Origin: Candidatus Saccharimonadota bacterium | Lineage (GTDB): Bacteria > Patescibacteriota > Saccharimonadia > Saccharimonadales > Saccharimonadaceae | Reading direction: 5' to 3' | Length of the DNA stretch: 47,483 nucleotides | Assembly (NCBI GenBank): GCA_028289015.1 | Contig: JAQGHC010000027.1 | Span: forward strand, 1-47,483 | Shown: piece by piece, positions 36,820 through 44,984 of the stretch | How the letters are laid out: each line of letters opens with the position of its first letter | Numbering within the stretch: position 1 is the first letter of the stretch | Position numbers and translations under genes: made by a program | The notes under the pieces: generated by a model | What the model saw: the letters and a program-made list of their open reading frames with translations, nothing else | Databases searched by the model: none | Told to the model about the DNA's origin: nothing

Positions 36820-37623
36820 ATGCTAGAAGTTGTTGACGTCGGAGTGGCTCATATAACAAAGCGCGAAAAGATGCTTCGTTATTATGGGCGCGTGCTTGAA
36901 CCTGGGCAAGCAAACGACCAAGATGCGTATATGATAGACGAGCAGTATAATTGTTTTGCTGTTGCAGATGGTGTTGGCAGCAGTATCAATTCGGATATTG
37001 CAGCGAAAGTAGTGTGCGAGGCCTATCGCGCAACAGTCATTGATCACTCTAACGGCACGGTGAGTATGTCAAAAAGCCAAAGGGAAGACGCAAGCGACAC
37101 GTTGCACCGTCTTCACTCGGCTGCTGCAGGCGCACATGCAACCACTACGTTTACTGGGTTCACAATCCATGCAAATAATATGGCGTCGTACTTGCATATC
37201 GGTGATTCGCAGTTGTTACTTTTGCGTGATGACGATGTAATGCAATGTACGAGTGAACACGTGGCGCCTAATGGTTTTCAGCTACTGAATTATTTAGGGA
37301 CACAACCCGAGTGGAAAGCAATGGGATATGCCCGACATCCATTGGAGCTGACGGGTGAGTCAAACGCATTCAGCACTACGAAATTAGAGGCGGAATGGGG
37401 TTTTATCCGTCTGAAGGACGGCGATCGATTAGTATTGATGACCGATGGCGTGCGAGGTAGTGGTCAAAACGACAGACTCGAAGATCGTTATTTGAGGGAA
37501 TATATGCAGCGTCGATTAGGTGCGACTGCATTTGCGCAGCTAGTCATGAGAAAATCTCGCAAAGAGGATGATTCTACTCTCGTGGTTGTCGATCTTGGCC
37601 TATCATTAAATACAGTCAAATAA
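36820..37623 (+). CDS. PP2C-family serine/threonine protein phosphatase
   Basis: The metal-dependent phosphatase core is clear: NDQDAYMID, FAVADGVGSS (metal-binding Asp-Gly), YLHIGDSQLLLLRDD, RLVLMTDGVRG and the closing EDDSTLVVVDL. The middle GHVLTNALG-type motif is replaced by less typical sequence, and an insertion around residues 150-195 distinguishes it from PrpC/Stp. At 267 residues it is a single-domain cytosolic enzyme. No partner kinase lies in the window. It is transcribed alone between clpP and rpoB. Confidence 0.88.
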   Translation: MLEVVDVGVAHITKREKMLRYYGRVLEPGQANDQDAYMIDEQYNCFAVADGVGSSINSDIAAKVVCEAYRATVIDHSNGTVSMSKSQREDASDTLHRLHSAAAGAHATTTFTGFTIHANNMASYLHIGDSQLLLLRDDDVMQCTSEHVAPNGFQLLNYLGTQPEWKAMGYARHPLELTGESNAFSTTKLEAEWGFIRLKDGDRLVLMTDGVRGSGQNDRLEDRYLREYMQRRLGATAFAQLVMRKSRKEDDSTLVVVDLGLSLNTVK

Positions 37624-37627
37624 CCCC

Positions 37628-37656
37628 TTGACTAATTGCACAAAAACCTTCACAAT
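37628..37656 (+). promoter_or_regulatory. Candidate upstream promoter of rpoBC
   Basis: TTGACT (37628-37633), a 17-base spacer and CACAAT (37651-37656). An alternative uses TTGCAC (37636-37641) with TACTAA (37660-37665). The -10 boxes are weak. Confidence 0.45.
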
Positions 37657-37697
37657 GGGTACTAAGAAGTAGTGTATCTTTGGTTGTGTATGTTCAT

Positions 37698-37770
37698 AGT
37701 TAGTTGGCCCTAACAGAGAGCAAATCAGAGTTTAGGGAATCTTCGGCGCCGATTACCCAACTAATATAAT
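37698..37770 (+). promoter_or_regulatory. Three-way-junction-like structure or operator upstream of rpoB
   Basis: TTAGTTGG (37700-37707) pairs with CCAACTAA (37757-37764) and encloses two adjacent stems: CCCTAA/TTAGGG (37708-37713 with 37732-37737) and AATC/GATT (37738-37741 with 37751-37754). Almost no base is unpaired at the junction. The second arm includes the 10-bp palindrome TCGGCGCCGA. A perfect TATAAT (37765-37770) directly follows, so the same sequence could instead be a DNA operator over a second rpoB promoter. Confidence 0.6.
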
Positions 37771-37789
37771 TCAATTGCGAGGAGTTACA

Positions 37790-40700
37790 ATGGCAAAAAC
37801 CAAGCCTGACGTGGCTAAGCGTGTGTTCTTTACGAAGGACGATACCGCTTTACCACTACCAAACCTAATCGCTCACCAGAAAGACTCATGGCGTGAATTC
37901 GTCGAGACTGGTTTGAGTGAAATATTTGCAGAACTTAACCCAATCGAGGACTATACTGGTCAAAAGCTCGAATTGCGATTCAAAGAATACGCATTCCAGG
38001 CACCAAAGACCACAGAGCAAGATGCGAAAGTGAACAACCTTACGTTCGACGCACCATTGCACGCCAACGTCGAGCTTACCAACAAGGTAACTGGCGAAGT
38101 CAAAGAGCAAGAAATTTATCTTGGTGATTACCCTTGGATGACTGACCGCGGAACATTCGTGATTAATGGTACTGAGCGTGTCGTCGTTTCACAGCTTATC
38201 CGTTCTGCAGGTGTATTCTTTACTGCTGACAGCGCTGTCGGCCGTAACAACTACGGAGCAAAACTTATCCCAGGCCGTGGTGCTTGGCTAGAGTTTGAAA
38301 CCGCTTCAAACGGTACGATCTACGTTAAGATCGACCGTCGCCGTAAACTACCTATCACAACACTACTACGTGCTCTAGGTCACAACAAAACATCAGAAAT
38401 AAAAGCATTATTTGCTGATGTTGATACTGGCGATGTCAAGTATATCGATGCGACTCTTGAAAAAGATCCAGCACGCGGTGCTAACGAAGCGTTAATCGAA
38501 GTTTACCGGCGTCTTCGACCAGGTGATCTTGCGACTGTTGATAACGCACGCAGTATGATCGAACGAATGTTCTTCGATTTCAAGCGATTCGACTATAGCC
38601 GCGTCGGACGTTACAAATTAAACCAACGCCTTGGTTTGGAAGTGCCAAACACGACAGAAAACCGTGTTTTCCAAATGACCGACTTGGTTGCAATCATTAA
38701 GGAAATCATTCGCCTTAATAACACCCAGGATCCAGCTGATGACATCGACGCGCTTTCAAACCGCCGTGTCAAATTAGTTGGTGAATTGGTTGCTCGTCAG
38801 TTCCGCGTCGGTATGCTTCGCATGCAACGTAACGCAATGGACCGCATGAGTATGAGTGATCTTGAAACTGTTACTCCTGGTCAGCTAATTAATGCTCGCC
38901 CGGTCGTTGCTGCTGTTCGTGAATTCTTTGCTAGCTCACAGCTTTCGCAGCTGATGGACGAAGTGAACCCGCTCGCAGAGCTTTCACACAAACGTCGCCT
39001 TAGTTCAATGGGTCCTGGTGGTCTTTCACGCGAACGCGCTGGCTTTGATGTCCGCGACGCTCACCCGACTCACTACGGTCGCCTTTGTTCTGTTGAAACC
39101 CCAGAAGGTGCCAACATCGGACTTGTATTGAACCTTGCAACCTACGCTCGTGTTAACGAATACGGTTTCATTGAAACTCCTTATCTTAAGGTAGTAAGCG
39201 GTAAAGTTACCGATGAAGTCGTTTATCTTGACGCTTCACAAGAACTTGGCGAAGTTATCGCTGACGCTGGTGCGAAATTGAACGCTGACGGTACATTCGT
39301 TGCCGAACGTGTGAGCGCTCGTGACAACCTTAACCCGGCGCAAGTAGACTCTGCTGACGTGACCTACATGGATGCAGCCAACAAACAAATTCTTGGTTCA
39401 ACCGCATCATTGGTGCCGTTTATCGAGAAAAACCGTGTTGACCGTTCATTGACTGGTTCAAACATGCAAAAGCAAGCAGTGCCACTTCTGAACCCAGAAG
39501 CAGCCATTGTCGGTACGGGTATCGAATCTGTGCTTGCGCAAAATACTAGCCAATTGATCGTTGCAGAAGCCGACGGCGAAGTTGTACGTGCTGATGCTGA
39601 CGAAGTGCATGTCAAGTATAAAGACGGCGTTAAGATTTACGAAGTTGTTCACTTCTCAAAATCTAACGATGACCGTTCAATCAACCAAAAAGTTCGTGTA
39701 TTGCGTGGGCAAAAAGTGGTTGCTGGCGACATTCTTATCGAAGGCGCATCGATCGCTGATGGCGAACTAGCCCTTGGTCGCGACCTCACTGTGGCCTTCA
39801 TGCCATGGGGCGGTTACAACATGGATGACGCGATCGTTCTTTCTGATCGTATCGTTAAAGAAGACGCATTAACGAGCATTAACATTAAGGACTACACTGT
39901 TGAAGTTCGTGAAACCAAGCTTGGTCCAGAAATTGTCACCCGCGACATTCCAAACGTTTCAGAAGATTCACTTCGTCACCTTGATGAAATGGGTATTGTT
40001 CAAGTTGGTTCTGAAGTTAAATCTGGCGACGTACTTGTCGGTAAGATTACACCAAAGGGTGAGCAAGAACTAAGCAGCGAAGAGCGCCTACTACGTGCAA
40101 TCTTCGGTGAAAAAGCAAAAGACGTTCGTGATACTTCACAGCGCATGAACAATGCTGGTGGCGGGAAAGTTGTCGGAGTTAAGATCTTTAGCCGTGAAAA
40201 CGGTCACGAACTTAAAGCTGGTGTATTAATGCAGATTCAGATTTTCGTTGCACAACTTCGCAAAATTAGCGTTGGTGACAAGCTAGCTGGTCGTCACGGT
40301 AACAAGGGTGTTGTTGCACGTATCCTTCCTGTCGAGGATATGCCATTTATGGAAGACGGTACGCCAGTTGATGTGGTCCTGAACCCACTCGGTGTCCCAT
40401 CTCGTATGAACATTGGTCAGCTATTTGAAACGCACCTTGGTATGGCAGCTCGTGCGCTTGGTTACAAAGTTGCAACACCTCCATTTAACGGTGTGCCTAA
40501 CGATGTCATTAGCGACGAGCTTGAAAAAGCTGGCTATGCTCGTGATGGTAAATCTCAACTTTACGATGGCCGTACTGGTGACGCCTTCGAAGAACGAACG
40601 ACTGTTGGTGTGATGCACATCATTAAGCTTCACCACATGGTAAGTGACAAGATCCACGCTCGTTCAACTGGTCCATACACAATGGTCACCCAGCAACCAC

Positions 40701-41149
40701 TTGGTGGTAAAGCACAAAACGGTGGTCAGCGATTCGGAGAGATGGAAGTCTGGGCCCTCGAAGCTTACGGTGCTGCAACAACATTGCAGGAGATGCTTAC
40801 TATTAAATCTGACGATGTCTACGGTCGTGCAAAAGCCTACGAATCAATCATTAAGAACGAAGCGATTGTTGGTCCGAAACTGCCAGAATCATTCAACGTC
40901 TTAGTGAAAGAATTGCAAGGACTTGGGCTTCGTGTTGACTTGCTTGACGAGAGCGCAGATGCAGCTATTGACGCAGAAGTGATCATTGCTACTAGTGGTC
41001 CAGCGGACAAAACTGTCCCTGCTCAGATCGTATTTGATGATGAAGAACTTGAAACGATTCTAGACGAAGCTGATGAACTCGGCGACCTTGAAGATGGTAT
41101 AACGATTCAAGACATTGATGAAATAGAAGAAATTAAGGAGGAGGCGTAA
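37790..41149 (+). CDS. rpoB: DNA-directed RNA polymerase beta subunit
   Basis: All catalytic-core beta regions are present. They include the rifampicin-pocket segment FFASSQLSQLMDEVNPLAELSHKRRLSSMGPGG, cited here by its parts SSQLSQLMDE and SHKRRLSSMGPGG, then RPTHYGRLC-like HPTHYGRLCSVETPEG, GRHGNKGVV, and the C-terminal GGQRFGEMEVWALEAYGAA. The main rifampicin-contact residues (equivalents of Asp516, His526 and Ser531) are kept, while some neighbours differ. The 1119 residues lack the large lineage insertions of proteobacterial beta. ATG 37790 has a GCGAGGAG ribosome-binding site; an in-frame ATG at 37775 is less likely. rplJ-rplL, often upstream, are absent. rpoC follows after one base. 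Confidence 0.98.
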   Translation: MAKTKPDVAKRVFFTKDDTALPLPNLIAHQKDSWREFVETGLSEIFAELNPIEDYTGQKLELRFKEYAFQAPKTTEQDAKVNNLTFDAPLHANVELTNKVTGEVKEQEIYLGDYPWMTDRGTFVINGTERVVVSQLIRSAGVFFTADSAVGRNNYGAKLIPGRGAWLEFETASNGTIYVKIDRRRKLPITTLLRALGHNKTSEIKALFADVDTGDVKYIDATLEKDPARGANEALIEVYRRLRPGDLATVDNARSMIERMFFDFKRFDYSRVGRYKLNQRLGLEVPNTTENRVFQMTDLVAIIKEIIRLNNTQDPADDIDALSNRRVKLVGELVARQFRVGMLRMQRNAMDRMSMSDLETVTPGQLINARPVVAAVREFFASSQLSQLMDEVNPLAELSHKRRLSSMGPGGLSRERAGFDVRDAHPTHYGRLCSVETPEGANIGLVLNLATYARVNEYGFIETPYLKVVSGKVTDEVVYLDASQELGEVIADAGAKLNADGTFVAERVSARDNLNPAQVDSADVTYMDAANKQILGSTASLVPFIEKNRVDRSLTGSNMQKQAVPLLNPEAAIVGTGIESVLAQNTSQLIVAEADGEVVRADADEVHVKYKDGVKIYEVVHFSKSNDDRSINQKVRVLRGQKVVAGDILIEGASIADGELALGRDLTVAFMPWGGYNMDDAIVLSDRIVKEDALTSINIKDYTVEVRETKLGPEIVTRDIPNVSEDSLRHLDEMGIVQVGSEVKSGDVLVGKITPKGEQELSSEERLLRAIFGEKAKDVRDTSQRMNNAGGGKVVGVKIFSRENGHELKAGVLMQIQIFVAQLRKISVGDKLAGRHGNKGVVARILPVEDMPFMEDGTPVDVVLNPLGVPSRMNIGQLFETHLGMAARALGYKVATPPFNGVPNDVISDELEKAGYARDGKSQLYDGRTGDAFEERTTVGVMHIIKLHHMVSDKIHARSTGPYTMVTQQPLGGKAQNGGQRFGEMEVWALEAYGAATTLQEMLTIKSDDVYGRAKAYESIIKNEAIVGPKLPESFNVLVKELQGLGLRVDLLDESADAAIDAEVIIATSGPADKTVPAQIVFDDEELETILDEADELGDLEDGITIQDIDEIEEIKEEA

Positions 41150-41150
41150 G

Positions 41151-44100
41151 ATGAGTCGTATTCTCGCTAACAACGGTATTGCTGATTTTGATGCAGTCCG
41201 TCTGGCAGTCGCTAGCCCCGAAGATATCCTAAAGTGGAGTCACGGGGAAGTCACTAAGCCTGAAACTATTAACTACCGTACCCAAAAACCTGAGCGTGAT
41301 GGTCTTTTCTGTGAACGAATTTTCGGACCAGTTAAAGATATTAATCCGCACGACAACAAGCTAAAGGGTGTTCGTTCACGCGAAGCTGCGATCGACAAGA
41401 ATGGTGAATTAGTCACTAAATCTATCGTTCGCCGCGAACGCATGGCGCACATTAACCTTGCTGCTCCTGTTGCTCACATTTGGTTCATGCGTGGCACACC
41501 TAGTGCTATGTCGTTACTACTTGGCATCACTGTTCGTAACCTTGAACGTATCGCTTACTTTGCAACCTACGTTGTTCTCGAAGTTGATACAGTCAAGCGC
41601 GACCAGATGCTCGCTGATCTAGAAGCTGAAACTGAAGCTGGCCGCATGGCAATCAAAATTCGTGCTGAAAAAGAAGCAGAAGCAGAAGGTGCTGACGTAA
41701 AAGCGCTTGCTGAACAGCAATCACGTGAAGTTGAAGAACTGAACGAAAGCTATACGATCAAAAAAGCGCAGCTTGAAATGCTCGTAAAGAATGCCCTTGT
41801 TAACGAAACTGATTTCCGTAATCTTCCTGAAGAATACGAAGAATTAGCTAAGGTTGGTATGGGTGGAACTGCGATGAAAGCATTGCTTGACGACATCGAT
41901 TTGCCGCAACTTATTGCTGAATTGACTGAAGAAGTTGAAGGCGCAAAGGGTCAACGCGAAAAGAAACTATTGAAGCGCCTTAAAGTGCTTGAAGCTATGC
42001 ACGCTGCAGGCATCAAGCCAAACAGCCTTACATTGACTGTTCTTCCTGTTATTCCACCGGACCTACGTCCAATGGTACAGCTAACAGGTGGCCGTTTTGC
42101 AACATCTGACCTTAACGACCTTTACCGCCGCGTTATCAACCGTAATAACCGTCTAAAGAAACTAATGGATCTTAACGCTCCTGAAGTTATCTGCCGAAAC
42201 GAAATGCGTATGTTGCAAGAAGCAGTCGATGCTTTGATCGACAACAGTGCCGCTCGTGGTGGTCGTGCGGTTAATGCAACAGGTGGCCGTCGCCGTCTTA
42301 AATCTATCAGTGATATGCTTAAGGGTAAGCAGGGCCGTTTCCGCCAAAACCTTCTTGGTAAGCGTGTTGACTACTCTGGACGTTCAGTTATTGTCGTTGG
42401 TCCAAAGCTTAAGATTCACCAGTGTGGTCTTCCAAAGCAAATGGCCCTCGAACTGTTCAAGCCTTTCGTTATTAGCTGGTTGATTCGTGGTGAGCACGCT
42501 CACAACATCCGCTCAGCTACTCGTTTGATCGAAGCAGGTGACACATTGGTATGGGATGCACTTGATGCAGTGATTGAAGGCAAATACGTTCTATTGAACC
42601 GTGCACCGTCTCTTCACCGTCTGTCAATCCAGGCTTTCCAGCCAAAACTTGTTGAAGGTAAGGCAATTCAGCTGCATCCACTTGTCGCAAACGGATTCAA
42701 CGCCGACTACGATGGTGACCAGATGGCTGTTCACTTGCCACTATCAGATGATGCGCAGCGTGAAGCTCGCGAGCTGATGAGCGCAACAAACAACCTTCTA
42801 AAGCCTGCTGATGGAGCGCCAGTCCTAAACATCGGACAGGACGTCGTTCTTGGTAACTACTACCTAACGTATGTAAAGCCAAGTGCGCAAACTGATACAG
42901 TCAAAGCCTACAGCTCTGTTTATGAAGCTGAAATGGCGTATGACAACCGCAAACTGCAGCTGCAAAGCCCAATTCGTGTGTTCGCTAAGGGTGAAATGCG
43001 TGATACGACATTAGGTCGCGTCTTCTTTAACGAAATCTTGCCTGCAGATTATCCATACGATAACTCTGTCCAGAACAAGAAGCAACTGAAGAAGGTTCTT
43101 GCGGTCATCTTCACGCAGTACGGTGCTGAAGAAACGGCAAAGACTGCTGACAAGATGAAAGGTCTCGCGTTTCGTTTTGCAACTATCGCCGCCGTATCGA
43201 CCGGTAAAGACGATTACATCCAATTCAAAGAAATCCCCGCATTCGTTGCTGAAGGTGATGCAAAGACAACGTTGATCTCTGAACAGTTTGACCAAGGTCT
43301 TGTGACTGACGAAGAGCGATACACGCTTACTGTTGCCGCATGGCGAAGTGTTGACCGTAAAGTAACTGACTTCTTACAGGATCAGTTGAAGAACATGGAC
43401 ACCAGTATTAGTGTCATGGTCAACTCAGGTGCCCGTGGTGATATCTCAAACGTCAAGCTTGCGAGCGCGATGGTCGGCATTATGGTGGATGCAAGTAACC
43501 AAGAAATCGAACTTCCTATTCGTTCTAACTATAAAGACGGTCTAAGCTCCCTGGAGCAGTTCGTGGCAACACGTGGTGCACGTAAGGGTCTGATCGACAC
43601 CGCTCTTAAGACCGCTGACTCGGGTTATCTTACTCGTCGTCTGGTTGATGTGTCACAAGATGTCTTTACTGTTGCAGACGCTGAAGGTGATGACGATGGA
43701 TACGCAATTAGCCGTAGTGAATCAGAACTTACAATGATTGCCTTTGGTAACCGCCTTGCTGGTCGCTTTACTGCCGAAGATGTTCCAGGTCACGTTGGCA
43801 AAGACGTTCTAATTACACGCGAAATTGCTGATGGTATCGAAGCTGATGAAAAGATCGAAAGCGTGAAGATCCAATCAGTCCTTTCAACGAAGAACCTCCG
43901 TGGTATTCCACAAAAAAGCTACGGTATCGACATGGCTACGGGCGCATTGGTTGCCAAAGCGCAGCCTGTCGGTGTTATTGCCGCACAGTCAGTTGGTGAG
44001 CCAGGTACGCAGCTAACGCTCAAGACCTTCCACGCCGGTGGTGTCGCTGGTGGTGACATTACCCAAGGTTTGCCTCGTGTTGAAGAGTTGTTTGAAGCTC

Positions 44101-44984
44101 GTTCACCTAAAGGTCAGGCAAATATGACTGAAGTTACCGGTGACGTTGATATTTGGGAAGATGGCAAAAAGTATATCGTTCAGGTTACTCCTGCTGCTGG
44201 CCATGTAGAGCGCATCGCGCTTAACGGACGTACGGTAACCGTTAAGGCTGGTAGCAACGTCAAGGTCGGAGACGTCCTTGCAACCGCAGAAAGCGAAAGT
44301 AAGCCACTTGTCGCACCATTCGACGGTGTTGTGGATGTTGCTGAAGATACACTTGTTCTTGCTGCAAACGCAGGCGCACCTGTCCGCTACGAAATCTCTG
44401 GCGCTACTCAATTAGTGGTCAAAGCTGGTGATCAAGTCCAAGCTGGTGACCGTCTAACTATCGGTTCATTGAATCTACACGATTTGATGCGCCTAAAGGG
44501 TACGGAAGCAACGCAGCGTTACATCATTAACGAAGTGCTTCGCATCTACGCCGCACAGGGTCAAGACGTCGCTGACAAGCACCTCGAGATCATCGTGCGA
44601 CAGATGTTTAGCCGTGTTCAGATTGAAGAATCTGGCGATAGTGCATTCGTTACCGGTGATATTGTCTCAAAGGCGTCAGTCGTTGAAGCAAACGCTGAGC
44701 TCGCTGCCGAAGGTAAAGAGCTTGTTGGTTACACGCAGTTACTCCTTGGTATCACCAAGGTGTCAATCTGGAGCGACAGCTGGCTATCAGCTGCATCATT
44801 CCAGGATACGACGCGCGTTCTGATCAACGCAGCTGTCAGTGGTCGCGCAGATCGCTTGCATGGTCTAAAGGAAAACGTTATCATCGGTCGCAAGATCCCT
44901 GTGGGAACTGGGGCCGTTAGCGACGAAGTAGCCGAAGAAGATCTTGTTAGCGAGATTGCCGAGGATCTAGAACTAGCTTCTTAG
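41151..44984 (+). CDS. rpoC: DNA-directed RNA polymerase beta' subunit lacking both zinc-site cysteine sets
   Basis: The catalytic loop is NADYDGDQM (Asn517 to Met525) with the three magnesium-binding Asp residues; Tyr replaces the usual Phe. The bridge helix and trigger-loop segments are normal (GARGDISNVKLASAMVG, GVIAAQSVGEPGTQLTLKTFHAGGVAGGDITQGLPRVEELFEAR, cited by parts). The N-terminal zinc domain, which normally carries four cysteines between ERIFGPVKD and VRRERM, has none here (about residues 60-95). The second site, normally a Cys upstream plus CxxxxGxCxxCYG, reads VLSTKNLRGIPQKSYG (about residue 910) without cysteine. The lengths of both regions are close to normal, so this is residue loss rather than deletion. 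Confidence 0.98.
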   Translation: MSRILANNGIADFDAVRLAVASPEDILKWSHGEVTKPETINYRTQKPERDGLFCERIFGPVKDINPHDNKLKGVRSREAAIDKNGELVTKSIVRRERMAHINLAAPVAHIWFMRGTPSAMSLLLGITVRNLERIAYFATYVVLEVDTVKRDQMLADLEAETEAGRMAIKIRAEKEAEAEGADVKALAEQQSREVEELNESYTIKKAQLEMLVKNALVNETDFRNLPEEYEELAKVGMGGTAMKALLDDIDLPQLIAELTEEVEGAKGQREKKLLKRLKVLEAMHAAGIKPNSLTLTVLPVIPPDLRPMVQLTGGRFATSDLNDLYRRVINRNNRLKKLMDLNAPEVICRNEMRMLQEAVDALIDNSAARGGRAVNATGGRRRLKSISDMLKGKQGRFRQNLLGKRVDYSGRSVIVVGPKLKIHQCGLPKQMALELFKPFVISWLIRGEHAHNIRSATRLIEAGDTLVWDALDAVIEGKYVLLNRAPSLHRLSIQAFQPKLVEGKAIQLHPLVANGFNADYDGDQMAVHLPLSDDAQREARELMSATNNLLKPADGAPVLNIGQDVVLGNYYLTYVKPSAQTDTVKAYSSVYEAEMAYDNRKLQLQSPIRVFAKGEMRDTTLGRVFFNEILPADYPYDNSVQNKKQLKKVLAVIFTQYGAEETAKTADKMKGLAFRFATIAAVSTGKDDYIQFKEIPAFVAEGDAKTTLISEQFDQGLVTDEERYTLTVAAWRSVDRKVTDFLQDQLKNMDTSISVMVNSGARGDISNVKLASAMVGIMVDASNQEIELPIRSNYKDGLSSLEQFVATRGARKGLIDTALKTADSGYLTRRLVDVSQDVFTVADAEGDDDGYAISRSESELTMIAFGNRLAGRFTAEDVPGHVGKDVLITREIADGIEADEKIESVKIQSVLSTKNLRGIPQKSYGIDMATGALVAKAQPVGVIAAQSVGEPGTQLTLKTFHAGGVAGGDITQGLPRVEELFEARSPKGQANMTEVTGDVDIWEDGKKYIVQVTPAAGHVERIALNGRTVTVKAGSNVKVGDVLATAESESKPLVAPFDGVVDVAEDTLVLAANAGAPVRYEISGATQLVVKAGDQVQAGDRLTIGSLNLHDLMRLKGTEATQRYIINEVLRIYAAQGQDVADKHLEIIVRQMFSRVQIEESGDSAFVTGDIVSKASVVEANAELAAEGKELVGYTQLLLGITKVSIWSDSWLSAASFQDTTRVLINAAVSGRADRLHGLKENVIIGRKIPVGTGAVSDEVAEEDLVSEIAEDLELAS

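Follow-up and report, generated by a model that had tools for sequence, protein, structure and literature searches.

The window, by which we mean the whole 47,483-nt stretch of DNA analysed here from a Candidatus Saccharimonadota bacterium (class Saccharimonadia, order Saccharimonadales), carries on its forward strand the gene rpoB (37790–41149), encoding six Rpb2 domains, with rpoC (41151–44984; Rpb1 domains) directly on its 3' side. The N-terminus of this RpoB shares 98% identity with that of the nearest named record, a Candidatus Saccharimonadia MAG. A gene for a PP2C/SpoIIE-like phosphatase (36820–37623) lies directly before the rpoB promoter (37628–37656, forward strand), which was recognized from its sequence and consists of a -35 box, TTGACT (37628–37633), a 17-nt spacer and a -10 box, CACAAT (37651–37656). 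The same spacing of 17 nt was present in 177 of 200 leaders, and the distance from the -10 box to the element described below was 7 nt in 164 of the 200 promoters scored. From these boxes we infer that rpoB transcription starts at 37663–37664. The ribosome-binding site of rpoB, GAGGAG (37779–37784, forward strand), was likewise read from the sequence and is kept in relatives. The window also contains a TATAAT at 37765–37770; it is not kept in aligned relatives, and transcription from it would start inside the ribosome-binding site. In three loci from other families of the order (L261, L264 and L266), the gene before rpoB resembles clpP by eye, in place of the PP2C-like gene of the window, suggesting that the leader stays with rpoB while the neighbours change.

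Starting at the predicted transcription start, a leader RNA element of roughly 100 nt (37664–37762, forward strand) was matched by model R1 at 87.7 bits (E 1.4e-17); the window itself belongs to the R1 training set. The element has no AUG at its 5' end and was assigned to type A (see below). Close to that end, GAAG (37666–37669) is predicted to pair with CUUC (37741–37744) as P0, and the strands 37678–37685 and 37723–37730 form P1. P2 (37691–37722) has a lower stem (37691–37695/37718–37722), an upper stem (37699–37703/37710–37714) and a tip loop, UUGGCC (37704–37709), that contains UGGC at 37705–37708; its shape was obtained by folding the stretch between motifs, and the upper stem covaries, with 72.5% of cells paired. 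The P3 hairpin (37735–37758), read from the sequence and recurring in relatives, was left unscored by the covariance model and consists of GGG/CCC and AAUC/GAUU around the loop UUCGGCGCC, in which GCC (37748–37750) is a possible partner of UGGC. The CUUC strand lies inside P3, with C37741 common to both, so that P3 competes with P0 at the inner pair, and P0 and the full P3 must either compete or form a pseudoknot. A further pairing, of UAGU (37670–37673) with ACUA (37760–37763), is possible and in the window weak, with 4 pairs. Across the family, the order of parts is AAGAAGUAGUGU, the P1 5' strand, a short bulge, P2 (tip GUGGCA), the P1 3' strand and P3, whose loop reads CUUC-N-GCC, followed by a variable stretch up to the ribosome-binding site.

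Conservation was assessed in the rpoB upstream regions of 210 loci, 189 of them distinct by sequence; an earlier motif scan had placed its anchor in 169 of these 189 leaders, some at wrong places. In alignment A1 (30 sequences aligned with MAFFT without regard to structure), RNAalifold found P0 (GAAG/CUUC) together with P1, with changes on both sides in 7 of the 12 predicted pairs. In alignment A2 (88 rows fitted to the covariance model), 304 double-change cells were counted, compared with 96.9 ± 7.9 in shuffles; the share of paired cells was 89.1%, and 66.2% after shuffling; and the covariation score was 0.498, compared with 0.144 after shuffling and at most 0.116 in slid versions. A2 and A3 each include one spurious row (L095, minus strand), and model R2 was built with that row. 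All 8 pairs of P1 show changes on both sides in A2, and its 3' strand is supported by covariation as well as by comparison with near relatives. P0 holds in all 88 rows of A2. L163 and L167 show a double change of P0, to GAAU/AUUC, whose altered strands in L201, L203 and L206, of the AGAG/CUCU type, still match by eye; CUUC is lost in a group of nine leaders (L028, L066, L067, L069, L078, L079, L084, L116 and L128). Since P0 is nearly invariant, its covariation rests on few lineages. The UGGC:GCC kissing pair is co-conserved in the window's family with almost no covariation, and the f6 family lacks UGGC.

These data bear on the earlier note on this DNA, which had described a compact three-way junction or palindromic operator upstream of rpoB. 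All the letters it named are present in the window: an outer stem of TTAGTTGG (37700–37707) and CCAACTAA (37757–37764), a second stem CCCTAA/TTAGGG (37708–37713/37732–37737) and a third stem AATC..GATT around TCGGCGCCGA. Folding the 162-nt stretch to minimum energy gives a structure that includes a stem of the junction's kind and is no more stable than shuffled sequences (z -0.45). In the window and its four near relatives, however, the outer stem, of 8 pairs, retains 8, 7, 6, 4 and 3, and the second, of 6 pairs, retains 6, 5, 3, 3 and 3, whereas in the same five sequences P1 keeps 8, 8, 7, 7 and 7 of 8 pairs and P0 all four throughout. This decay, through uncompensated changes in close relatives, indicates that the junction is not conserved; as it also conflicts with P1 and P2, the junction as first described is hardly tenable, although it might exist as an alternative state in this species, and of the features named with it only the innermost hairpin (P3, with its CUUCGGCGCC loop) and the promoter boxes survived the comparison. 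An operator, or another promoter-proximal DNA signal with incidental RNA structure, could be argued from AAGAAGTAGTGT, which lies at a fixed distance from the -10 box and is kept even where its second half has no detected RNA partner. Against such a signal, neither the palindrome nor the TATAAT is conserved, and P1 and P2 change by compensating double changes, which argues for RNA rather than a DNA operator, so that we regard a DNA signal as very improbable. The more general proposal of a structured element within the rpoB mRNA leader is borne out by the covarying structure and by its place upstream of rpoB.

Model R1 matched 126 of the 294 genomes of the class at 127 places, one per genome except in G044, which has two rpoB copies (on C2 and C3), each with its own leader; this assembly perhaps contains mixed strains. 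The rpoB place is listed for 108 of the 127 matches, and all 108 lie 20–164 nt upstream of rpoB on the same strand; rpoB also follows each of 11 further matches that were read individually. The window's own genome has a single copy, its next match having an E value of 6. With R2, 29 of 379 genomes of the phylum were matched, 25 of them in the order and 4 outside the class; the latter are weak, none precedes rpoB, and they were taken as chance matches. No match was obtained in other orders of the class under strict filters, and since these filters lose weak members, the genome counts are lower bounds. A shorter form of the leader, without the UGGC tip, occurs in other families of the order, for example in L237. 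On this evidence, the leader family appears to span one order of Saccharibacteria, and wherever the position of a member was checked, the covarying structure lies in the 5' leader of an rpoB gene. Several individual loci deserve mention. In f6 leaders, L237 among them, the 3' loop forms a perfect palindrome (UUCGGCCGAA or UUCGCGCGAA) that might permit dimerization or act as a protein site. L126 and L086, which have an identical leader, carry, between the element and the start of rpoB, a long and GC-rich insertion with a hairpin sequence. At G302:C15:16600-17103, the search reported an rpoB N-terminus with one in-frame TGA.

Typing of 207 leaders (the 189 distinct ones and 18 from other families) gave 140 of type A, 60 of type B and 7 others; among the last, the wrong place was excised in L022, three are type A by eye (L018, L099 and L137) and three are divergent (L195, L201 and L203). 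In the 60 type B leaders, a class defined by the AUG/GUG itself and not by a stop, the 5' end N[A/G]TGAA replaces N[A/G]GAAG, and a putative micro-ORF, typically reading AUG AAG, 0–2 codons and a stop, lies at the predicted transcription start. In 30 of 32 distinct type B ends (30 AUG and 2 GUG), the frame is closed by a stop no later than codon 5, located at codon 3 in 8, codon 4 in 2 and codon 5 in 20, with TAA, TAG and TGA all used; the early stop is missing in L192 and L154. Among ends that lack a codon-3 stop, 22 of 24 of type B have one at codon 4 or 5, as against 0 of 9 of type A (Fisher 1.4e-6, a value that ignores kinship). In type B leaders, P2 also tends to be GC-rich and to precede a U-tract that starts at +44 to +68, mostly near +50. 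With duplicates removed, a terminator-like hairpin (at most -6 kcal/mol, with a U-tract) was found in 36 of 47 type B leaders versus 3 of 119 of type A. Six leaders with AUG (L163, L167, L164, L185, L204 and L266) and two with GUG (L154 and L155) have no such hairpin. When mapped onto a 154-row FastTree tree of RpoB, in which 46 forks are open, the AUG state requires 11 changes, of which at least 6 are forced by starred branches. Kinship weakens the association of AUG and terminator, since of the independent pairs about 3.6 pointed the same way and 0 the opposite way (median p 0.125). Folds of type B starts contained no antiterminator of note. The window leader, being of type A, has neither an AUG short ORF nor a terminator.

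A third pairing, of UAGUGU with a downstream ACACUA, reaches 5–6 pairs in 35 of 136 type A leaders, where about 12 would be expected. In one type B clade of 12 leaders, five (L185, L190, L204, L205 and L208) have 7–8 pairs, with 10–41 of 1000 shuffles equally good, and three (L191, L198 and L207) have 5–6 pairs, with 108–430 of 1000 shuffles equally good; the best match in L197, L189, L194 and L199 is merely the P0 strand. The same five leaders have an additional hairpin before CUUC, the loop of which is complementary over 7–8 nt to the leader 5' strand, and in L205 both sides of this pairing differ yet still match. The evidence that UAGUGU has such a partner, be it ACACUA or the inserted hairpin's loop, is suggestive only.

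Considered together, the element in the window is almost certainly a real structured leader RNA, and it very likely controls rpoBC in cis. The reading we favour, as a probable one, is that of a cis-regulatory leader RNA family of the rpoB–rpoC mRNA. The structure, its place and its gene are established by comparison; that P0 is a switchable tie is suggested by its use of the 5' end, by the base it shares with P3 and by its overlap with codon 2 of the micro-ORF in type B. The 5'-terminal GAAG pairs with CUUC in the downstream loop and thereby closes the covarying P1/P2 arm, and the occupant of the 5' end, be it a regulator such as RNA polymerase or a subunit of it or, in AUG lineages, a ribosome, would decide whether P0 forms and thus how much rpoBC is expressed. 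That the making and breaking of P0 is the switch itself we put forward tentatively. In the AUG lineages, the terminator-like hairpin near +50 might serve to attenuate transcription; in the window's lineage, with no AUG and no terminator, the output might lie in the start of translation or in the stability of the mRNA. Direct masking of the ribosome-binding site is not supported as a common mechanism, as the gaps between element and start codon span 20–164 nt, and gaps of up to 164 nt speak against a single shared mechanism of that kind.

What the leader responds to can be read in several ways. A compact pseudoknot with near-invariant loops would suit a metabolite riboswitch. Metabolite switches usually occur at several pathway genes, however, and this element was found at rpoB only, in one copy per genome; such an association with a single gene favours a leader that senses a product or the machinery itself, and we consider a riboswitch improbable. 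In a ribosome-occupancy attenuator, a ribosome starting on the 5' AUG of type B would translate 2–4 codons, and its presence on GAAG would decide whether P0 folds or transcription terminates at the P2 hairpin and its U-tract; type A would be the older form, devoid of the micro-ORF. The early stops, their enrichment at codons 4–5 in type B, the concentration of terminator-like hairpins in that type and its repeated changes on the RpoB tree all fit this scheme. It is nevertheless rather unlikely on present evidence: the association of AUG and terminator falls short of significance when tested with independent pairs, no antiterminator was found, two ends lack an early stop, eight AUG/GUG leaders lack the terminator-like hairpin, and the scheme is inapplicable to the window itself. 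A fuller version of the proposal, in which a 5'-end ribosome, irrespective of any particular amino acid, covers GAAG, blocks P0 and resets a terminator about 50 nt downstream, appears doubtful, as does its companion idea that this form has been gained and lost repeatedly on an older, ORF-free pseudoknot.

An autogenous leader, to which RNA polymerase or its beta/beta' subunits would bind and so repress rpoBC, is a reading we hold as possible. It accords with the restriction to a single gene in each genome, which was rpoB in every case checked, as in product-bound leaders, and with what is cited for Escherichia coli, where rpoBC is under its own autogenous control according to a review (PMC10931766) and an attenuator preceding rpoBC is cited in a table of a cyanobacterial paper (PMC1242208); on the other hand, the conserved loops could serve many partners. 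How bacteria set the synthesis of RNA polymerase is poorly known beyond a handful of model species, and in Saccharibacteria hardly any gene regulation has been explored. If confirmed, the element would represent a new family of RNAs with a pseudoknot at the 5' end and offer a testable route to how the level of RNA polymerase is set. If the type B proposal were true, an ORF of two to four codons would link ribosome supply to polymerase supply, and polymerase synthesis would follow the supply of free ribosomes in many Saccharibacteria.

With regard to known systems, no family of Rfam 15 matches the window leader, and neither do the Lacto-rpoB (RF01709) and L10 leader (RF00557) models; RF01709 also gave no match among the loci of 20 relatives, and a 16S tail pattern search found nothing. 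The family was not found described in literature on rpoB leader RNAs of Saccharibacteria or the candidate phyla radiation, in a search that covered few subscription papers and no supplements. Leader RNAs of rpoB are known as a kind, whereas this family, with a 5'-end tie and a micro-ORF form, is new in the sense of being absent from Rfam 15 and from the literature searched; a control element of a new type, as the earlier note had supposed, is plausible. The note's statement that the usual L10-type control is absent applies to rpoB, where RF00557 has no match; it does not extend to the genome, in which L10 (rplJ) is encoded on another contig, away from rpoB, with a genuine L10 leader before it (RF00557, 69.6 bits; L244:1889-2016, minus strand). 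The L10 leader controls the gene block bearing rpoBC in many bacteria; here, the usual control evidently stays with rplJ, and rpoB, separated from the rplJL block, has a leader RNA of its own.

Lacto-rpoB lies upstream of rpoB, the place that defines that family. It is rated in Table 1 of PMC2864571 as a certain RNA, probably cis-regulatory and probably not a switch. Both it and the window leader are structured RNAs found by comparison upstream of rpoB, but Lacto-rpoB belongs to Lactobacillales, in another phylum, and its model has no match here. The E. coli rpoBC attenuator, for which titles cited in PMC1242208 propose possible autogenous control, resembles what is proposed for type B in placing attenuation ahead of rpoBC; it lies, however, inside the rplKAJL–rpoBC unit, whereas the type B terminator-like hairpin is near +50 of the transcript of rpoB's own promoter and the window's type has no terminator. 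The micro-ORF has parallels in the 5'-terminal uAUGs of leadered E. coli mRNAs, which are reported to bind 70S ribosomes and in some cases to affect the downstream gene (PMC4965119). Type B shares with them an AUG at the mRNA 5' end followed by a normal leader, but its ORF has 2–4 codons in 30 of 32 ends and is part of a folded element, and it is absent from the window's type. In mycobacteria, leaderless short ORF attenuators control the genes behind them, according to a title cited in PMC13236596; as proposed for type B, a leaderless short ORF precedes the controlled genes, but those attenuators are described as encoding runs of cysteine, whereas the type B ORF is of minimal length and its second codon specifies lysine in nearly all cases.
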